Source of the DNA: Bacteroidota bacterium
GTDB taxonomy: Bacteria; Bacteroidota; Bacteroidia; Bacteroidales; UBA12077
Assembly: GCA_020444275.1 (NCBI GenBank)
Contig: JAHLLG010000001.1
Location: 248,001-312,000 of the forward strand
Length of the DNA stretch: 64,000 nt
Direction: 5' to 3'
Positions 1 to 8,534 of this stretch are shown here, one piece after another (positions within the stretch are counted from its first letter, which is position 1; every line of letters starts with the position of its first letter). The notes beneath the pieces are model-generated. The model made no database searches and was not told the DNA's origin. It worked only from the letters and a program-made list of their open reading frames with translations. A program made the translations under genes and the position numbers.

Positions 1-702
1 ATTAATTGAAACAATATGATCATAAATGTTATCACTACGAGGGGTGTTTTGATCAAAAATAAATGCTGCTGTATTAAATTGATCATCTAAGGTTGGGATA
101 ATAATAATCTTCCAGTAACCACTTGGTAATTTATGCTGTTCATTTGCATTGGGTAGTTTTGGCATTTCTCTTTCATAAAGCGGACCAGTCATTACGTACA
201 CGAGATTGGTTTTTCTTACTATGTCTCTCACCTTATTTTCTAAATACATCCAAGGACCTCTATTAAGATCTGATTTTTGAGGTGTAATATTGCTTAGGTA
301 GTTTGTTTCAGATGCATATACAGAGTTTTTAAAAGAGCCTAAAGGGGCTTGATGTCCACGATCAGTTTTTAATGTGTCATTAGCATATTTATAGTCATTT
401 TCAGATCCTGATTTAGGCTCCAACGTTTCTTCTTCGTCGAGCCATGGATCAGACTTCCAAGCTCTATCAATTGTTAATGATCCATCGACTTCATGAACTG
501 TAAGTCTATATGCAACCCAATCCGCAAATTTTGTTTCATCATTACTACTTAACGCATAAATATCTCTTATAATTAAATCATTTGATTCAGGTGTTCCTGT
601 AGGATAACCATAGAAAAAATGTTTACAATAAATTTCAGGATTTTGAGCATTTAATTGACTTGTGATCAAAATAATAGAAATAATAAAGATAAAATTTTTC
701 AT
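1..702 (-). CDS. DNA/RNA non-specific endonuclease (NUC1-like), signal peptide, truncated by window start
   Basis: My translation of the minus strand from ATG at 702 gives MKNFIFIISIILITSQLNAQ (signal peptide) and later KTDRGHQAPLGSF...NITPQKSDLNRGPWMYLE...LVYVMTGPLY, the DRGH motif region of NUC1 nucleases. Absent from the ORF track because it runs off the window edge. Confidence 0.85.
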   Translation of the reverse strand, partial: MKNFIFIISIILITSQLNAQNPEIYCKHFFYGYPTGTPESNDLIIRDIYALSSNDETKFADWVAYRLTVHEVDGSLTIDRAWKSDPWLDEEETLEPKSGSENDYKYANDTLKTDRGHQAPLGSFKNSVYASETNYLSNITPQKSDLNRGPWMYLENKVRDIVRKTNLVYVMTGPLYEREMPKLPNANEQHKLPSGYWKIIIIPTLDDQFNTAAFIFDQNTPRSDNIYDHIVSIN

Positions 703-762: not shown

Positions 763-1077
763 TTACCAAAAAAGGAAAGATCTGTTCTTATGCCATAGTA
801 CCTTACTTCTAGAAATACTAAAATGGCTCTTACATCCTACTATTCTAGATACTGATGGGTATAAGGATATTTTTTTATTTGCTGTTAAATAGTGCCAGCA
901 AGGTGAAACGGTTTTCAACAAATTTAGATGTATAACATCTTGACATCCACAAGGACATTTAAAACTGAGTAACCATTTATTATTTGATTCTCCAATAACA
1001 TATATACATTTCGTTTGATAATTTTCAGGTGGATCAAGAACATTTTTGTATTTGTATCTTCTTCTAAATAATTTCAT
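763..1077 (-). CDS. DUF6527-like small Cys-rich (putative Zn-binding) protein
   Basis: 104 aa with FKCPCGCQD...PCWHY...GCKSHFSI; last gene of the Ubl operon. Confidence 0.65.
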   Translation of the reverse strand: MKLFRRRYKYKNVLDPPENYQTKCIYVIGESNNKWLLSFKCPCGCQDVIHLNLLKTVSPCWHYLTANKKISLYPSVSRIVGCKSHFSISRSKVLWHKNRSFLFW

Positions 1078-1083
1078 TTTAAT

Positions 1084-2475
1084 TTATATAGATAATTCCG
1101 GCATTTCAAGATAAGGTATCACATCACCTCGCCCAATATTCTTTGCTAAAAATAAATCTTTAGAATACTTGTTTTCTCCTACATTAACAATGAAGTTTTC
1201 TGTCATATCAATTGTACTTGCAGCATAATAATCAGGAGAATCTACCTTATACTGGTGCACTCTGTTTAGAAATTCATTAATTGCATGGCTTGATATTTGC
1301 ATATTTATACTAATTACAGCCGGACTATTTACATTTATATTCTTTATGTATGAATTCTTTTTTAAATGAAAATATTCGTTTGGATTTTTCCTATACTGAC
1401 TTGAGGATCTTACATCGTCTAAAGTATATACACCACGCGTAAGTAGGGAAGATTTGCCAGGTTGTATATAGTGAACAGTTCCGCATATTTTTGATATACC
1501 TCCTTTATTATCTGCCTCTAATTTAACTCCAAGATCAAAATAGGGGATTATATAAAATGTACTCAACTGATTAATTAAATACCTTCCATCAACACTATCC
1601 AGACAGCCAAAAATAAGGTCACAATTTGAAAGTGATTTTAGTAAATCTTTATTTTCATATATATTATGTCTATAAGTTATAATTTTAGTTTCTAAACCAA
1701 TATTATTATAAGCATCAGCTAAAACATCCACTTTATATCTTTTTTTTTCGGCATCACTCCTAGTGGAATTTAGTATCCTATTTAGATTTTTAGTTTCAAC
1801 AATATCGGGATCTGCAATAACAAGTTTTCCTACACCTAAACGAACAAGTTGTTCAATAACGATACTGCCTGTCCCTGATGCTCCAACTATACCAATCTCC
1901 ATGCTGTTTAACATTGTGTACGTTTTCTCTCCAAATGCTTGTATTGTTCTTCGAGCAAAATCATCATTTAACGTTGTTTTTGGTTGATTAAAAAAGGTAA
2001 TTAAATCACCAACAATAGAGACTTTAGTTACAGGTTCTGTATTAAGGTCTACATTAAAAAAACGCCCAAAAATTTTTCCTTCTGGCAACATTATTGCACT
2101 GGCATGAGGGAGATCATTATTTGACCAACCAAATACTGAGTCGAAAAACTCACGATCAGACTTGTTGTCTTGTTCAGAAAAGTATTTGTATCCATTGGGA
2201 TGACTATGTATTTTAAGAATTGCAAAATTACTTTTTGCAATCTTTTCAAAATATTTAATAATACTGCTAGTTGACCATTTCAACATATCAGGCTCTCTAA
2301 CAGTACAATCTTTATATGGAACAAATATTATATCATAAACCATTAGTGTATGTATATTATTTGTTAGATTTCTTCCACACAGGGCAACTGCTACAGCTTC
2401 TTTGCCATCACCTGGAAATAAGTGTGTTTTTAATTTTCTGTGATTATCTTCCGTTAATTTAAGATGTAATTCCAT
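1084..2475 (-). CDS. JAB/JAMM peptidase - ThiF/E1-like adenylyltransferase fusion
   Basis: N-terminal HSHPNGYKYFSEQD fits HxHx7Sx2D (JAMM). C-terminal GIVGASGTGS...ADPDIVETKNLNR...CLDSVDGR is ThiF/E1. Overlaps the upstream E2 ORF by 17 bp. Confidence 0.9.
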   Translation of the reverse strand: MELHLKLTEDNHRKLKTHLFPGDGKEAVAVALCGRNLTNNIHTLMVYDIIFVPYKDCTVREPDMLKWSTSSIIKYFEKIAKSNFAILKIHSHPNGYKYFSEQDNKSDREFFDSVFGWSNNDLPHASAIMLPEGKIFGRFFNVDLNTEPVTKVSIVGDLITFFNQPKTTLNDDFARRTIQAFGEKTYTMLNSMEIGIVGASGTGSIVIEQLVRLGVGKLVIADPDIVETKNLNRILNSTRSDAEKKRYKVDVLADAYNNIGLETKIITYRHNIYENKDLLKSLSNCDLIFGCLDSVDGRYLINQLSTFYIIPYFDLGVKLEADNKGGISKICGTVHYIQPGKSSLLTRGVYTLDDVRSSSQYRKNPNEYFHLKKNSYIKNINVNSPAVISINMQISSHAINEFLNRVHQYKVDSPDYYAASTIDMTENFIVNVGENKYSKDLFLAKNIGRGDVIPYLEMPELSI

Positions 2476-2875
2476 ATGGTTGTTTTATAAATTCTTGTTC
2501 AAACCAAAAGCTAACTAGTGTAATATGAGTAGAAATATCATCAACTCCTTCTCTCCAGGGATTTTGGGCTGTTCTATGCCTCGACCATCTTTGATATATT
2601 TTTTCATCGATCGTTTGGTTACTAGTAGCTTTTATTAATTTCTTATCTTTTCTTACTAGAGCAGGATAAAAGTATGCCATATCAATTTGCACTCTGGGAT
2701 ATCCAGTTTCTATTTTAAGAGCGATATCTACATTATTTTGAGTATAACCAGGAGCAACTGGGTAATTATAAATAATTACCCATTGCATTCCTTTGTCATT
2801 TAATGTTTCCCAATCTAACCCTAAATCGTCTAAAAATTCAACATCATAACTTGGTAATTGAAATTGCCTTCGCAT
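2459..2875 (-). CDS. E2/UBC-like protein (Prok-E2_E type)
   Basis: 138 aa between the Ubl and E1 genes with YPRVQIDMAYFYP and QRWSRHR..NPWREGVDDISTHITLV; resembles bacterial Prok-E2_E proteins. No cysteine present. Confidence 0.7.
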   Translation of the reverse strand: MRRQFQLPSYDVEFLDDLGLDWETLNDKGMQWVIIYNYPVAPGYTQNNVDIALKIETGYPRVQIDMAYFYPALVRKDKKLIKATSNQTIDEKIYQRWSRHRTAQNPWREGVDDISTHITLVSFWFEQEFIKQPYGITS

Positions 2876-3175
2876 TTATCCTTCAGTTTGATCTAATGGA
2901 ATAGTCATGAACTTTTCTACTCCAGGTTCTGTGAAACATACTACCTGATCATATGCGATTTTTTGAACTTTACCGCCCTTAAATCGCTGATTTAGTTGAA
3001 ATCTTTCAGGAGGTGTTTTTCCTGCAAGATGTAGAATCTCTTTCCCTGTCATACATTCGATTTCCACTATGTATTTTTGGCGATCAACTTTAATCTTATA
3101 CTTTTGATTCTTAGGAATCTCTTTGCCTTCTTGGGCAAATAACTCAATGTCGATAATTGTTTTTTCTGTATTCAT
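2876..3175 (-). CDS. Multi_ubiq-like ubiquitin-like modifier (single domain)
   Basis: 99 aa; KYKIKVDRQKYIVEIECMTGKEILHLAGKTPPERFQLNQ pattern; ends in Gly (…LDQTEG-stop). Confidence 0.75.
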   Translation of the reverse strand: MNTEKTIIDIELFAQEGKEIPKNQKYKIKVDRQKYIVEIECMTGKEILHLAGKTPPERFQLNQRFKGGKVQKIAYDQVVCFTEPGVEKFMTIPLDQTEG

Positions 3176-3265: not shown

Positions 3266-3934
3266 ATGACTATTACCTTCCCAGAACAAAGTCAGTTTAA
3301 GGCGCTGAATGAAAAGGATTTAATCTTGAACCTCAAAAGTGAAACAGATTCAAGAGTAATAAAGGCCTTACAATTTGAGTTTTATAATCGTTATGCACCC
3401 TATGTGTTTAAGATTGCTACACAAGCGTGCCGTAGCTATGAGGATGCAGATTTTTTGGCAAGAGAAGTACTTCAAAAAACCTTTATAAATGCTTTTAAAG
3501 CCTTGGGAAATTTTGATTTACCTGATCCTATCAGTGATGATGTATGTAAGAAAGTCTTAAAAGCATGGTTGGGTAAAATTGGAAACACAGAGTTAAAAAA
3601 AGTATATGCTGAAAAGAAAGATGTGTATAATTTATCATTTGATGATACCTATGAGCCGGTGGATAGCACGTTCATATCAAGTTTAGAGGAGGAGGTTGTT
3701 GAGATTCCAAATGAGTTTATGTTGAAACTTAATAAAGCTCTTGATAGTTTAAAAGAAATAGATCGTTTAATTGTTCTTACATATGCTAGTGAAGGATGTA
3801 TAAATTCTAAAAAACATCTTAGCAAAAACTCAATGGATTTTTTAATAAAAACATTTGAAACTACCCCTGAAAATATAAGACAAAGAAAAAGAAGAGCCCT
3901 TGAAAAAATTAAAACTATTTGCTTTAGCTCGTAA
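3266..3934 (+). CDS. sigma-70 family RNA polymerase sigma factor-like protein
   Basis: Region 2-like YNRYAPYVFKIATQACRSYEDADFLAREVLQKTFINAFKAL; C-terminal region 4-like NIRQRKRRALEKIK. ATG at 3266 preferred over the GTG at 3215, which lies within a dyad. Confidence 0.7.
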   Translation: MTITFPEQSQFKALNEKDLILNLKSETDSRVIKALQFEFYNRYAPYVFKIATQACRSYEDADFLAREVLQKTFINAFKALGNFDLPDPISDDVCKKVLKAWLGKIGNTELKKVYAEKKDVYNLSFDDTYEPVDSTFISSLEEEVVEIPNEFMLKLNKALDSLKEIDRLIVLTYASEGCINSKKHLSKNSMDFLIKTFETTPENIRQRKRRALEKIKTICFSS

Positions 3935-3953
3935 AAAAAACTAAAAACAAACC

Positions 3954-4295
3954 ATGAAAAAGAAAAGTAAAAAGAATCGTACACAAATCGACCAAGAATT
4001 AATAATTCAAAGAGCTATTAGTTCAGGTGGATTTTTATTTCCAGAGACTGTAAACGAAGTAATTGAATATGAAAGGAGATTTGGAAATACGGACGTTATT
4101 CTACCAGATGACCTAAAAGAACCTTTATTTTTAGAATCAAAAGATGACTGTAGCCCGATTTCTGCAGTTGATTCTAGCAGTAATTATTCAATGGCGGCTA
4201 GAACAGCAGACGAGTCTATTCCAGAAGAAATCAAAATTAGGATGGAAAGAGATAGAAAGAATTATAAAAAGAAGAAAAATAAAAATGTGGGATGA
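3954..4295 (+). CDS. hypothetical protein, 113 aa, coupled to sigma factor and ImmA/IrrE genes
   Basis: ORF starts 20 bp after the sigma stop and overlaps the next start (ATGTGGGATGA). Confidence 0.6.
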   Translation: MKKKSKKNRTQIDQELIIQRAISSGGFLFPETVNEVIEYERRFGNTDVILPDDLKEPLFLESKDDCSPISAVDSSSNYSMAARTADESIPEEIKIRMERDRKNYKKKKNKNVG

Positions 4296-5100
4296 TAGAA
4301 GACGTGAGATCGCATTTCTAGCTGAAGGAATTGCAGAAGAAAATATTACAAACGGTATTGTAAGTTTAAATAAGATACTTAAAAAGAAAGATATCGAAGT
4401 AATATATGGCAATTATGGTAAGTATTTTGAAGGTGACCTTGTTCATGAAGATGGTAATTTCTGGATTTATATTAATCAGGATATTTTAACTGAAAAGAAA
4501 TCACCAAGAACAAGGTTTACCTTGGCTCATGAACTTGGGCATTATTTTATAGATGAACATCGAAATTTATTACTTCAAGGTATTTCCTTATCATTTCGAG
4601 GAAATAGTTTTCATTCAGAAAAACATACAGAAAAAGAGGCAAATTTATTTTCATCAAATTTATTGATGCCTTTTTCTAGATTTAAAAGAAAGGCAAGCAG
4701 GTTCGAACCAGGTATATCTTCAATTATCGGGTTAAGCAAGTTTTATAAAACATCTATTGAAGCTACAGCAATCAGATATATAGATCTTGATATCTGTCCT
4801 TCAATTTTCATTAGGTGGCGGGAAGATTTTACTTCCCATTATGCGTCATACTCAAGGTCATTCTCAGGTCTTTCCGGGGTAAAAGGAAGACCTGTAATAA
4901 GAGTTGTTGATAATTACATTAGTGAAATTTTTGACTCATTGGAATCTGTTGAAATAAATGAGGAATTTTACGAAGTTGCAACTAATTTATCAAGATGGAT
5001 TGCAACAATAAAACCGGAATCAAGATATGATTTAACCGGACTAGAGCAAACTATACGACTTGGTAATTACGGAGGTATGACTTTACTTTTATTTCAATAA
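4285..5100 (+). CDS. ImmA/IrrE family metallo-endopeptidase
   Basis: RTRFTLAHELGHYFIDEHR (HExxH) followed by EKEANLFSSNLLMP, typical of ImmA/IrrE. Start at 4285 (MWDDRRREIAF) is more plausible than the track's 4144. Confidence 0.9.
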   Translation: MWDDRRREIAFLAEGIAEENITNGIVSLNKILKKKDIEVIYGNYGKYFEGDLVHEDGNFWIYINQDILTEKKSPRTRFTLAHELGHYFIDEHRNLLLQGISLSFRGNSFHSEKHTEKEANLFSSNLLMPFSRFKRKASRFEPGISSIIGLSKFYKTSIEATAIRYIDLDICPSIFIRWREDFTSHYASYSRSFSGLSGVKGRPVIRVVDNYISEIFDSLESVEINEEFYEVATNLSRWIATIKPESRYDLTGLEQTIRLGNYGGMTLLLFQ

Positions 5101-6116: not shown

Positions 6117-7643
6117 CTATATTTCGATTTTCTTTGCTTTCCATAAAGTTAGATCCGTTTCAATCCAATTACGATCAAAGACCCTTTTATCCCGTGAACT
6201 CACGTATTGTATAAGCTCTTCATATCCCCACATTGTTAGTTTTATTTGATATACAATATTATCTTTTCTTTGATTAAAAGGGGTGCCTTTAAGTGGAATG
6301 TCCTTTACTTCTATCCGTGTTATTGTTTTTTGAAATTCGCCAATGAAGTTTTCTCCTGACATATCAAAAATATCTTTTTTTGGTTTGTTAGGGACAACTT
6401 CTAACTTCCTTTTATATTTGTTAATTCGAGATTCTAAAGCACTAATTTCTTCATTATATGATTTTGATTGATTTATAAAAATAGATTCAGGTATGATTTC
6501 TTTAACATAACCATTTGTAAGTCTTGAAAACTCTTTTTCTAATTTTTTTATATTATTTTCAATTACTTCAATTTTTTTATAAAGTTCTTTATTTCTTTTT
6601 TTTACTTTGCTTTCTATTTTATTCCAGTCCCATACGTTTGTTGATGAGTGATGGAAAAAGGCTAGTAAATTCAATAAATCAATATTGATACCTTTCGACC
6701 CACAAAACTTGTTTTTGTATCCCGTTTTTGACGACAGACATTTATAAACATTATCGGACAGGTCTTTCCTTCTATGCATGTATAAAGGCTCACCACATTT
6801 CCCGCAATAGGCTAGTCCTTTAAGTAGATTAATGTTTTTAGAATCTCTATTATGATGTTTAGCTTTTGCTTTAATTATAGATTGTACAGCTTCCCAGTTT
6901 TCAATAGGAATAATTACCTCAAGGTTATAAGGTACTTTCTCTTTATTATGATACCTTTCACCTTTATATAGAGGGTTGGTTAAAATATCATTTATTGTCT
7001 TATCAACCCAGCGTTTGTTTTTTCTAGTTTGTACGCCAAGATCATTTAGGTGCTGAGCAATCTTGTTCATACTCATTCCTTCAAGATACTTACTATAAAT
7101 TTCTTTTATTATTTCAGCTTCTTTAGGCTGTATCGCTAATTTCTTATTTATTGATTGAAAACCAAAAGGTTGTACAGCGCTATTTGCTCCACCATTTAAT
7201 TTAGAGTTCTTGAGTCCTGATTTAACACGGGTTTTTAAAGTTTCAACCTCCATTTGTGCAATACTTGCAAAAATACCTACTCTAAGTGTTGCTTCCCCAC
7301 TTATAGAACCATCAGGGTTAAGGGTTCTAATTCCTTCTTTTTCGGTATGAATACAAACACCATCTTTACTCAATTCATCTATTATGTCTATTGTATGTCG
7401 TAAATTTCGTCCAACGCGACTTAACTCGTGACTAAAAATGTGTTTAATATTATTTTCTTGAATAAAATCTAGTAATGCATGAAAAGCGGGACGATCTAAG
7501 TTTTTAGTTGTTCCGGAAATTTTTTCTTCAAAGATTTCAATAACTTCAAAACTTAACTTCTTTGCATATTCCTTTAATTCATTTATCTGTCTTTCTGTGT
7601 TTTGCTCTAAAGTTGATACTCTTGCGTAGATAACTGCTTTCAT
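6117..7643 (-). CDS. large serine recombinase / site-specific integrase
   Basis: MKAVIYARVSTLEQNTERQINELKEYAKKL; SHELSRVGRNLRH; recombinase domain and zinc ribbon (CGKCGEPLYMHRR...YKCLSSKTGYKNKFCGS); coiled-coil C-terminus. ATG at 7643. Confidence 0.95.
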   Translation of the reverse strand: MKAVIYARVSTLEQNTERQINELKEYAKKLSFEVIEIFEEKISGTTKNLDRPAFHALLDFIQENNIKHIFSHELSRVGRNLRHTIDIIDELSKDGVCIHTEKEGIRTLNPDGSISGEATLRVGIFASIAQMEVETLKTRVKSGLKNSKLNGGANSAVQPFGFQSINKKLAIQPKEAEIIKEIYSKYLEGMSMNKIAQHLNDLGVQTRKNKRWVDKTINDILTNPLYKGERYHNKEKVPYNLEVIIPIENWEAVQSIIKAKAKHHNRDSKNINLLKGLAYCGKCGEPLYMHRRKDLSDNVYKCLSSKTGYKNKFCGSKGINIDLLNLLAFFHHSSTNVWDWNKIESKVKKRNKELYKKIEVIENNIKKLEKEFSRLTNGYVKEIIPESIFINQSKSYNEEISALESRINKYKRKLEVVPNKPKKDIFDMSGENFIGEFQKTITRIEVKDIPLKGTPFNQRKDNIVYQIKLTMWGYEELIQYVSSRDKRVFDRNWIETDLTLWKAKKIEI

Positions 7644-7659
7644 AAAAATGGTGTTTTCA

Positions 7660-7700
7660 CAAATATAAAACACCTCATTTAATTATACAACTATATCAGA
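7660..7700. other. genomic island / comM junction (att end)
   Basis: The comM reading frame diverges right after HHTISD, about 40 bp from the integrase start codon. Confidence 0.8.
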
Positions 7701-8534
7701 GATCGTATGGTGCGGACTCCGGTAAGGCCGTTTGGTCATCAGCGACGTGTCGCCGTCAATTTTTCCTGCAACCGAATGAATTTTTGTGGTTTCCAGCGCT
7801 TCGTGCAAAGTCAACGGGGGAATAATAGTCGGAATTCGTTTTGCTAACATCGTTTTTCCTGCGCCTGGAGGGCCAATCATAACGATATTATGACCACCAG
7901 CGGCGGCAATTTCCAATGCTCTTTTTACATTCTCCTGTCCACGTACATCCGAAAAATCGGCTTCGTAATTGTTCACGTTGGTAAAAAACTCATCGCGGGT
8001 ATCCACTATGGTTTTCTCGAGTGTAATCTCATCATTAAAAAAACCAATAACTTCTTTTATATTCTCTACACCATAAATTTCCAGATCATCAACTACAGCT
8101 GCCTCTTTGGCGTTTTCTTTGGGTAAAATAAAACCTTTGAATCCTTCTTTACGAGCCTGAATGGCGATGGGTAAAACACCTTTTATTTTTTGCAAGCCAC
8201 CATCCAGCGAAAGTTCGCCCATAATCATGTACTTATGAATTTCATCAGATTGGATTTGCTCTGATGCAGCTAAAATCCCAATGGCCAGAGGTAAATCGTA
8301 TGCCGATCCTTCTTTTCGAATATCGGCAGGAGCCATATTGATCACAATTTTTTTGCCCGGAACTTTATATCCGTTAGTACGTAAGGCAGAATCAATACGT
8401 TGCTGACTTTCTTTAACAGCACTGTCGGGCAAACCCACAAGATAAAAGTTGATTCCCTGGGATACACTAACCTCAATGGTAATGGTTGTTGCATTTATTC
8501 CCTGAACAGCACTTCCATAAGTTTTAACTAACAT
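7683..8534 (-). pseudogene. comM: ComM/YifB Mg-chelatase-like ATPase, 5' fragment interrupted at HHTISD
   Basis: MLVKTYGSAVQGINATTITIEVSVSQGINFYLVGLPDSAVKES... with Walker A GPPGAGKTMLAKR; ends RPYRSPHHTISDIVV-stop. Normal YifB continues past HHTISD with Walker B and about 230 more aa. Confidence 0.92.

Follow-up and report, generated by a model that had tools for sequence, protein, structure and literature searches.

Bub operons encode a known bacterial pathway of tagging by ubiquitin-like proteins (Ubl). As cited in PMC13373217, the family was defined by Gong et al. 2025 and Ye et al. 2026, and its mechanism is covered by the 2026 paper (Ye et al., NSMB); anti-phage protection by Bub operons has not been demonstrated according to the same article (PMC13373217). 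Iyer et al. 2006 had already described an operon type, 6e, composed of a polyUbl, an inactive E2/RWD-like protein, a JAB-E1 protein and a metal-binding protein (PMC1779556). Hence, the prior work suspected in an earlier note on this DNA does exist (Iyer et al. 2006, PMC1779556; Ye et al. 2026).

The window (the whole 64,000-nucleotide stretch that was analyzed) carries four tightly packed genes on the minus strand (763-3175), encoding a Ubl, an E2-like protein, a JAB-E1 fusion and a DUF6527 protein. The BubA-like Ubl (99 residues, 2876..3175, minus strand) matched Pfam Multi_ubiq (PF14452, E=1.6e-9) and gave weak PDB matches to Bub Ubls, Citrobacter BubA among them. It contains cysteine, is free-standing with no fusion to the E2, and its C-terminus is already glycine (...LDQTEG). 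The BubB-like E2 (138 residues, 2459..2875, minus strand) matched Prok-E2_E (PF14462, E=2.1e-34), and the BubCD-like JAB-E1 fusion (463 residues, 1084..2475, minus strand) matched ThiF (PF00899, E=1.2e-28) and, slightly below the Pfam family cut-off, Prok-JAB (PF14464, E=4e-5). The E1 and E2 genes, both placed correctly by the earlier note, overlap by 17 bases. The last gene (763..1077, minus strand) encodes a DUF6527 protein (PF20137, E=5.4e-17), the fourth gene of Bub operons, relatives of which were found in 82 of 101 Bub loci.

The window thus holds in one operon the gene content of a Bub system, and the gene order is identical in two other loci (L005 and L007). The E1 matched Citrobacter BubCD (PDB 9ea4) with E=5.2e-69, and its AlphaFold model (pLDDT 92) had BubCD as best fold match (TM 0.85/0.88). 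The E2 matched BubB (PDB 9eae_C) with E=1.9e-22 in a sequence search and E=2.5e-36 in a profile search, and the best fold match of its model (pLDDT 89) was BubB of 9eae (TM 0.87/0.93). Besides BubB homology the E2 has the WSRH block and no catalytic cysteine, and besides BubCD homology the E1 has intact JAMM and adenylation motifs and a crossover tyrosine. As E1 and E2 match BubCD and BubB by both sequence and fold, the four-gene set is a Bub operon, a Bacteroidota member of the known tagging pathway. Conjugation of the Ubl by these proteins is putative.

To place the window proteins we used 101 loci, including the window itself, of which 78 came from a genome scan and the rest from plasmid, viral and genome loci. 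The 78-locus scan used a narrower alignment, a nine-sequence alignment being too diverse as a query; a scan of genome contigs with a single-protein query returned no loci. A PF14461 search of the genome gave no match, but as its controls were silent too this negative carries no weight. Alignment of 90 E1s and 94 E2s left 81 E1s and 84 E2s once near-duplicates were taken out.

The window E2 has no cysteine in its 138 residues, as the earlier note had it, and so lacks the catalytic residue of a canonical thioester (UBC) E2. Among the 94 aligned relatives no conserved cysteine column was found (the best held cysteine in 18 of 94), and 32 of the 94 have no cysteine at all within the aligned domain. 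Ser98 and His100 of the WSRH block (Ser98-Arg99-His100, 2576..2584, minus strand) are present in all 94, and in 84/84 when near-duplicates are left out. Trp107, Tyr59 and Met66 are likewise 84/84 in this reduced set. This block is the best-conserved region of the E2 and spans several phyla. Given the 32 cysteine-free members, the lack of a conserved cysteine column and the 94/94 conservation of Ser98 and His100, the absence of cysteine from the window E2 is more than chance. Two E2 serines had been put forward earlier as candidates; that of QRWSRHR is Ser98 and is invariant together with His100, whereas that of SNQT is not conserved.

The JAB-E1 fusion retains what adenylation and JAMM chemistry require by motif. 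The adenylation residues named earlier are present, and the key ones (G198, G203, D222, N230, R233, K248 and D293) are found in 90/90 E1s of the family. The JAMM metalloprotease motif (H90-S-H92-P-x7-S100-x2-D103, 2167..2208, minus strand, with E26 at 2398-2400) is complete, E26, H90, H92, S100 and D103 each being present in 90/90 E1s. The crossover loop (residues 376-383, 1327..1350, minus strand) starts at Tyr376. Nowhere else in the E1 model does pLDDT fall below 50 over three or more residues in a row, and such low confidence would be typical of a loop that moves during crossover; the model is of a monomer, with neither Ubl nor E2. Tyr376 is present in 80/80 resolved E1s, the single gap being a split reading frame (L087). 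The crossover cysteines of MoeB (C187) and ThiF (C184) align adjacent to Tyr376, in a register that a Bub insertion makes uncertain by a few residues. Hence, where a canonical cysteine E1 of the UBA5/MoeB/ThiF type has a crossover-loop cysteine, the window E1 has a tyrosine. The title of PDB entry 9eav, BubCD(D104A/Y370F)-BubB-BubA(155-229), describes an E1-E2-Ubl ternary complex, and by alignment Citrobacter D104 is the JAMM aspartate (D103 of the window protein) and Y370 is Tyr376. The choice of Y370F suggests that the tyrosine is needed for a step after binding, which would fit a catalytic role.

Our overall reading, which we consider quite probable, is that this Bub operon uses a cysteine-free route through an oxyester on E2 Ser98, with Tyr376-dependent transfer and with the JAMM domain acting on conjugates. 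The E1 portion of the JAB-E1 fusion would adenylate the C-terminal glycine of the Ubl, as its motifs and fold indicate. Neither the crossover loop of the E1 nor the E2 has a catalytic cysteine. Once activated, the Ubl would form an oxyester with Ser98 of the E2, either directly or by way of the loop tyrosine of the E1. His100 would be the likely base, and Tyr376 would be required for transfer as either a catalytic side chain or a transient acceptor. The Ubl would then be passed from Ser98 to a presumed target, and the JAMM/JAB domain probably removes or processes the conjugates. In the fused relatives the JAB domain may additionally release the Ubl from the E2, a step that would not be needed in the window operon because its Ubl is already free. 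We infer the oxyester on Ser98 because this serine is invariant and conserved thiols are lacking. Ser98 and His100 are retained, and a conserved E2 cysteine is lacking, even beside E1s of the cysteine type, and on sequence grounds the Ser98 oxyester is the most economical reading, with the caveat that an invariant serine beside an invariant tryptophan and histidine could be structural. Ye et al. are said to describe Ubl~serine oxyester intermediates. A more elaborate thiol-free form, a two-step oxyester relay in which the Ubl would go from Ubl-AMP to a tyrosyl ester on E1 Tyr376, then to E2 Ser98 and on to the target, seems to us unlikely. The question of the active site is reduced to three invariant residues: Ser98 and His100 of the E2 and Tyr376 of the E1.

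We give a similarly low probability to an E2 that is a catalytically dead RWD/UEV-like scaffold, which would only position the Ubl while the E1 moves it directly from the adenylate to a target, or to the E2 as the target itself. Iyer et al. 2006 assigned this group of E2s as cysteine-less and likely inactive (PMC1779556), and the E2 model does give weak fold matches to the E2 variants Tsg101 UEV (E=1.2) and Mms2 (E=1.7). However, a passive scaffold has no need of an invariant Ser/His pair, and this pair is kept in 84/84 E2s from several phyla.

Another possible nucleophile, the serine of the PGKSS segment of the E1, had been proposed earlier to occupy the expected crossover position. E1 residues 338-350 (QPGKSSLLTRGVY) do read PGKSSLLTRG as reported. 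Upon alignment with both E. coli MoeB and ThiF, the PGxxCLxC segment corresponds to their CYRC, which together with their C-terminal CxxC pair forms a zinc-binding site. PGKSSL (E1 339-344, 1444..1461, minus strand) is thus the site of a lost zinc-binding CxxC and not the catalytic crossover position, as read from these alignments. Among the 81 non-redundant E1s residue 343 is serine in 65, threonine in eight, cysteine in six, asparagine in one and aspartate in one. As the column accepts S, T, C, N and D, residue 343 is not an essential nucleophile. The six E1s with cysteine at 343 (L001, L004, L010, L015, L016 and L021), five of which also have cysteine at 346, all carry near-C-terminal cysteines (CPIC, CLYC, CRIC or a similar pair), and in such keepers of the first pair these are the counterparts of the MoeB/ThiF C-terminal CxxC. 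The window E1 has no cysteine in its C-terminal tail and so has neither of the two CxxC zinc pairs of a canonical cysteine E1. The prevalence of serine (65/81) and threonine (8/81) speaks for Ser343 as an oxyester-forming crossover residue, but the asparagine and aspartate at this column, the pairing of CxxC with a C-terminal cysteine partner in the cysteine-type members (as in the MoeB/ThiF zinc sites) and the order of the segment in the E1 model, unlike that of the crossover loop, make this role very improbable. Column 343 does not track E2 chemistry, since E2 Ser98 and His100 and E1 Tyr376 are constant whichever of the five residues occupies it. Two events can now be separated: whether the zinc site of the E1 is lost varies within the family, whereas the absence of a catalytic cysteine does not. 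Of the earlier proposal that Ser/Thr oxyesters replace thioesters, the part that stands is the E2 (no conserved cysteine, invariant Ser98) and the part that falls is the E1 PGKSS serine.

Least probable of all is a thioester route kept through a relocated cysteine in the E1 or another protein: the Ubl has a cysteine and E1 column 291 (FGCLD) is cysteine in 78/81, but C291 lies within the adenylation core directly before the DxxDGR motif, the other cysteine named earlier (column 331, ICGTV) is present in merely 38/81, no column beyond residue 316 of the 81 E1s exceeds that count, and the E2 has no conserved cysteine. Both ICGTV and FGCLD were rejected on conservation and position.

Upstream of the Bub operon lies a divergent module on the plus strand (3266-5100). 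Its first gene (3266..3934) encodes an ECF-like sigma factor (TIGR02937 sigma70-ECF, E=6e-11, slightly below cut-off), which probably regulates the Bub operon; relatives are found upstream of 24 of the 84 non-redundant Bub loci. In 23 of the 84 the sigma factor is paired with a small protein (~113 residues, 3954..4295, plus strand in the window), and 14 of these loci also have CapP. The small protein matched no family in Pfam or in a further family-profile search, and its co-occurrence with the sigma factor makes it an anti-sigma candidate. The third gene (4288..5100, plus strand) encodes a CapP-like ImmA/IrrE (M78) peptidase (PADLOC capP, E=2.4e-40; Pfam PF06114). The module looks like a sigma/anti-sigma counterpart of CapH plus CapP, and the literature searched gave no account of such a module. 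In L031 (6989-7835), L034 (7008-7851) and L077 (3807-4713, counted on the reverse strand), a conserved domain of ~170 residues is joined to the N-terminal motif of the small protein (FGYLLPTNDEELEEFEKIFGKTQV in L031); the L031 copy had no Pfam match, and no CapP was detected at these three loci.

The Bub operon sits on an island, roughly 27 kb long, that interrupts comM/yifB. At one end of the island a large serine recombinase gene (6117-7673) adjoins the N-terminal half of comM/yifB (7683-8534), and the C-terminal half (L101/L102) lies ahead of the window, about 20.3 to 19.6 kb from its first base. A relative of the same genus carries a Bub operon of a different, cysteine type (L103, 4329-8521), the E1 of which has PGSDCL and a C-terminal CRIC, and this operon adjoins a comM interrupted at a nearly identical point, which suggests a shared integration hotspot. 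Putative secreted endonuclease genes adjoin both operons, possibly by chance: that of the window (1-702, minus strand) matched Pfam Endonuclease_NS, and that of L103 (9310-13026, plus strand) is endonuclease I-like by eye.

Of the described systems, Citrobacter Bub (BubA, BubB and BubCD; PDB 9ea4, 9ea5, 9ea8, 9eae and 9eav) shares the cysteine-less E2 with a QRWSRHR block, the JAB-E1 fusion with PGxS[S/T]L and an invariant crossover tyrosine, and the folds of both proteins. The identity is about 30-37% and the divergent regulators differ, and whereas in a Citrobacter-type locus (L008) the Ubl is multi-domain and forms one protein with the E2, the window has a single free Ubl and a separate E2. 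Type 6e of Iyer et al. has the same gene content, and its E2 was already reported to have no conserved cysteine; that E2 was proposed to be inactive and Ubl-binding (PMC1779556), whereas the invariant Ser98 and His100 argue for an active site. The Bil system (BilABCD) likewise comprises a bacterial Ubl, E1, E2 and JAB, but its JAB is separate and the BilD E1 has a catalytic cysteine, Cys417 (PMC11354881). The UBA5/MoeB/ThiF E1s share the adenylation fold and a crossover loop at the same position, but their zinc CxxC pair and crossover-loop cysteine are both missing from the window E1. The Bub family is widespread and cysteine-less chemistry is fixed in it; the window operon is a new member, and as the pathway is already being studied, the gain is a corrected active site and a sharper test.
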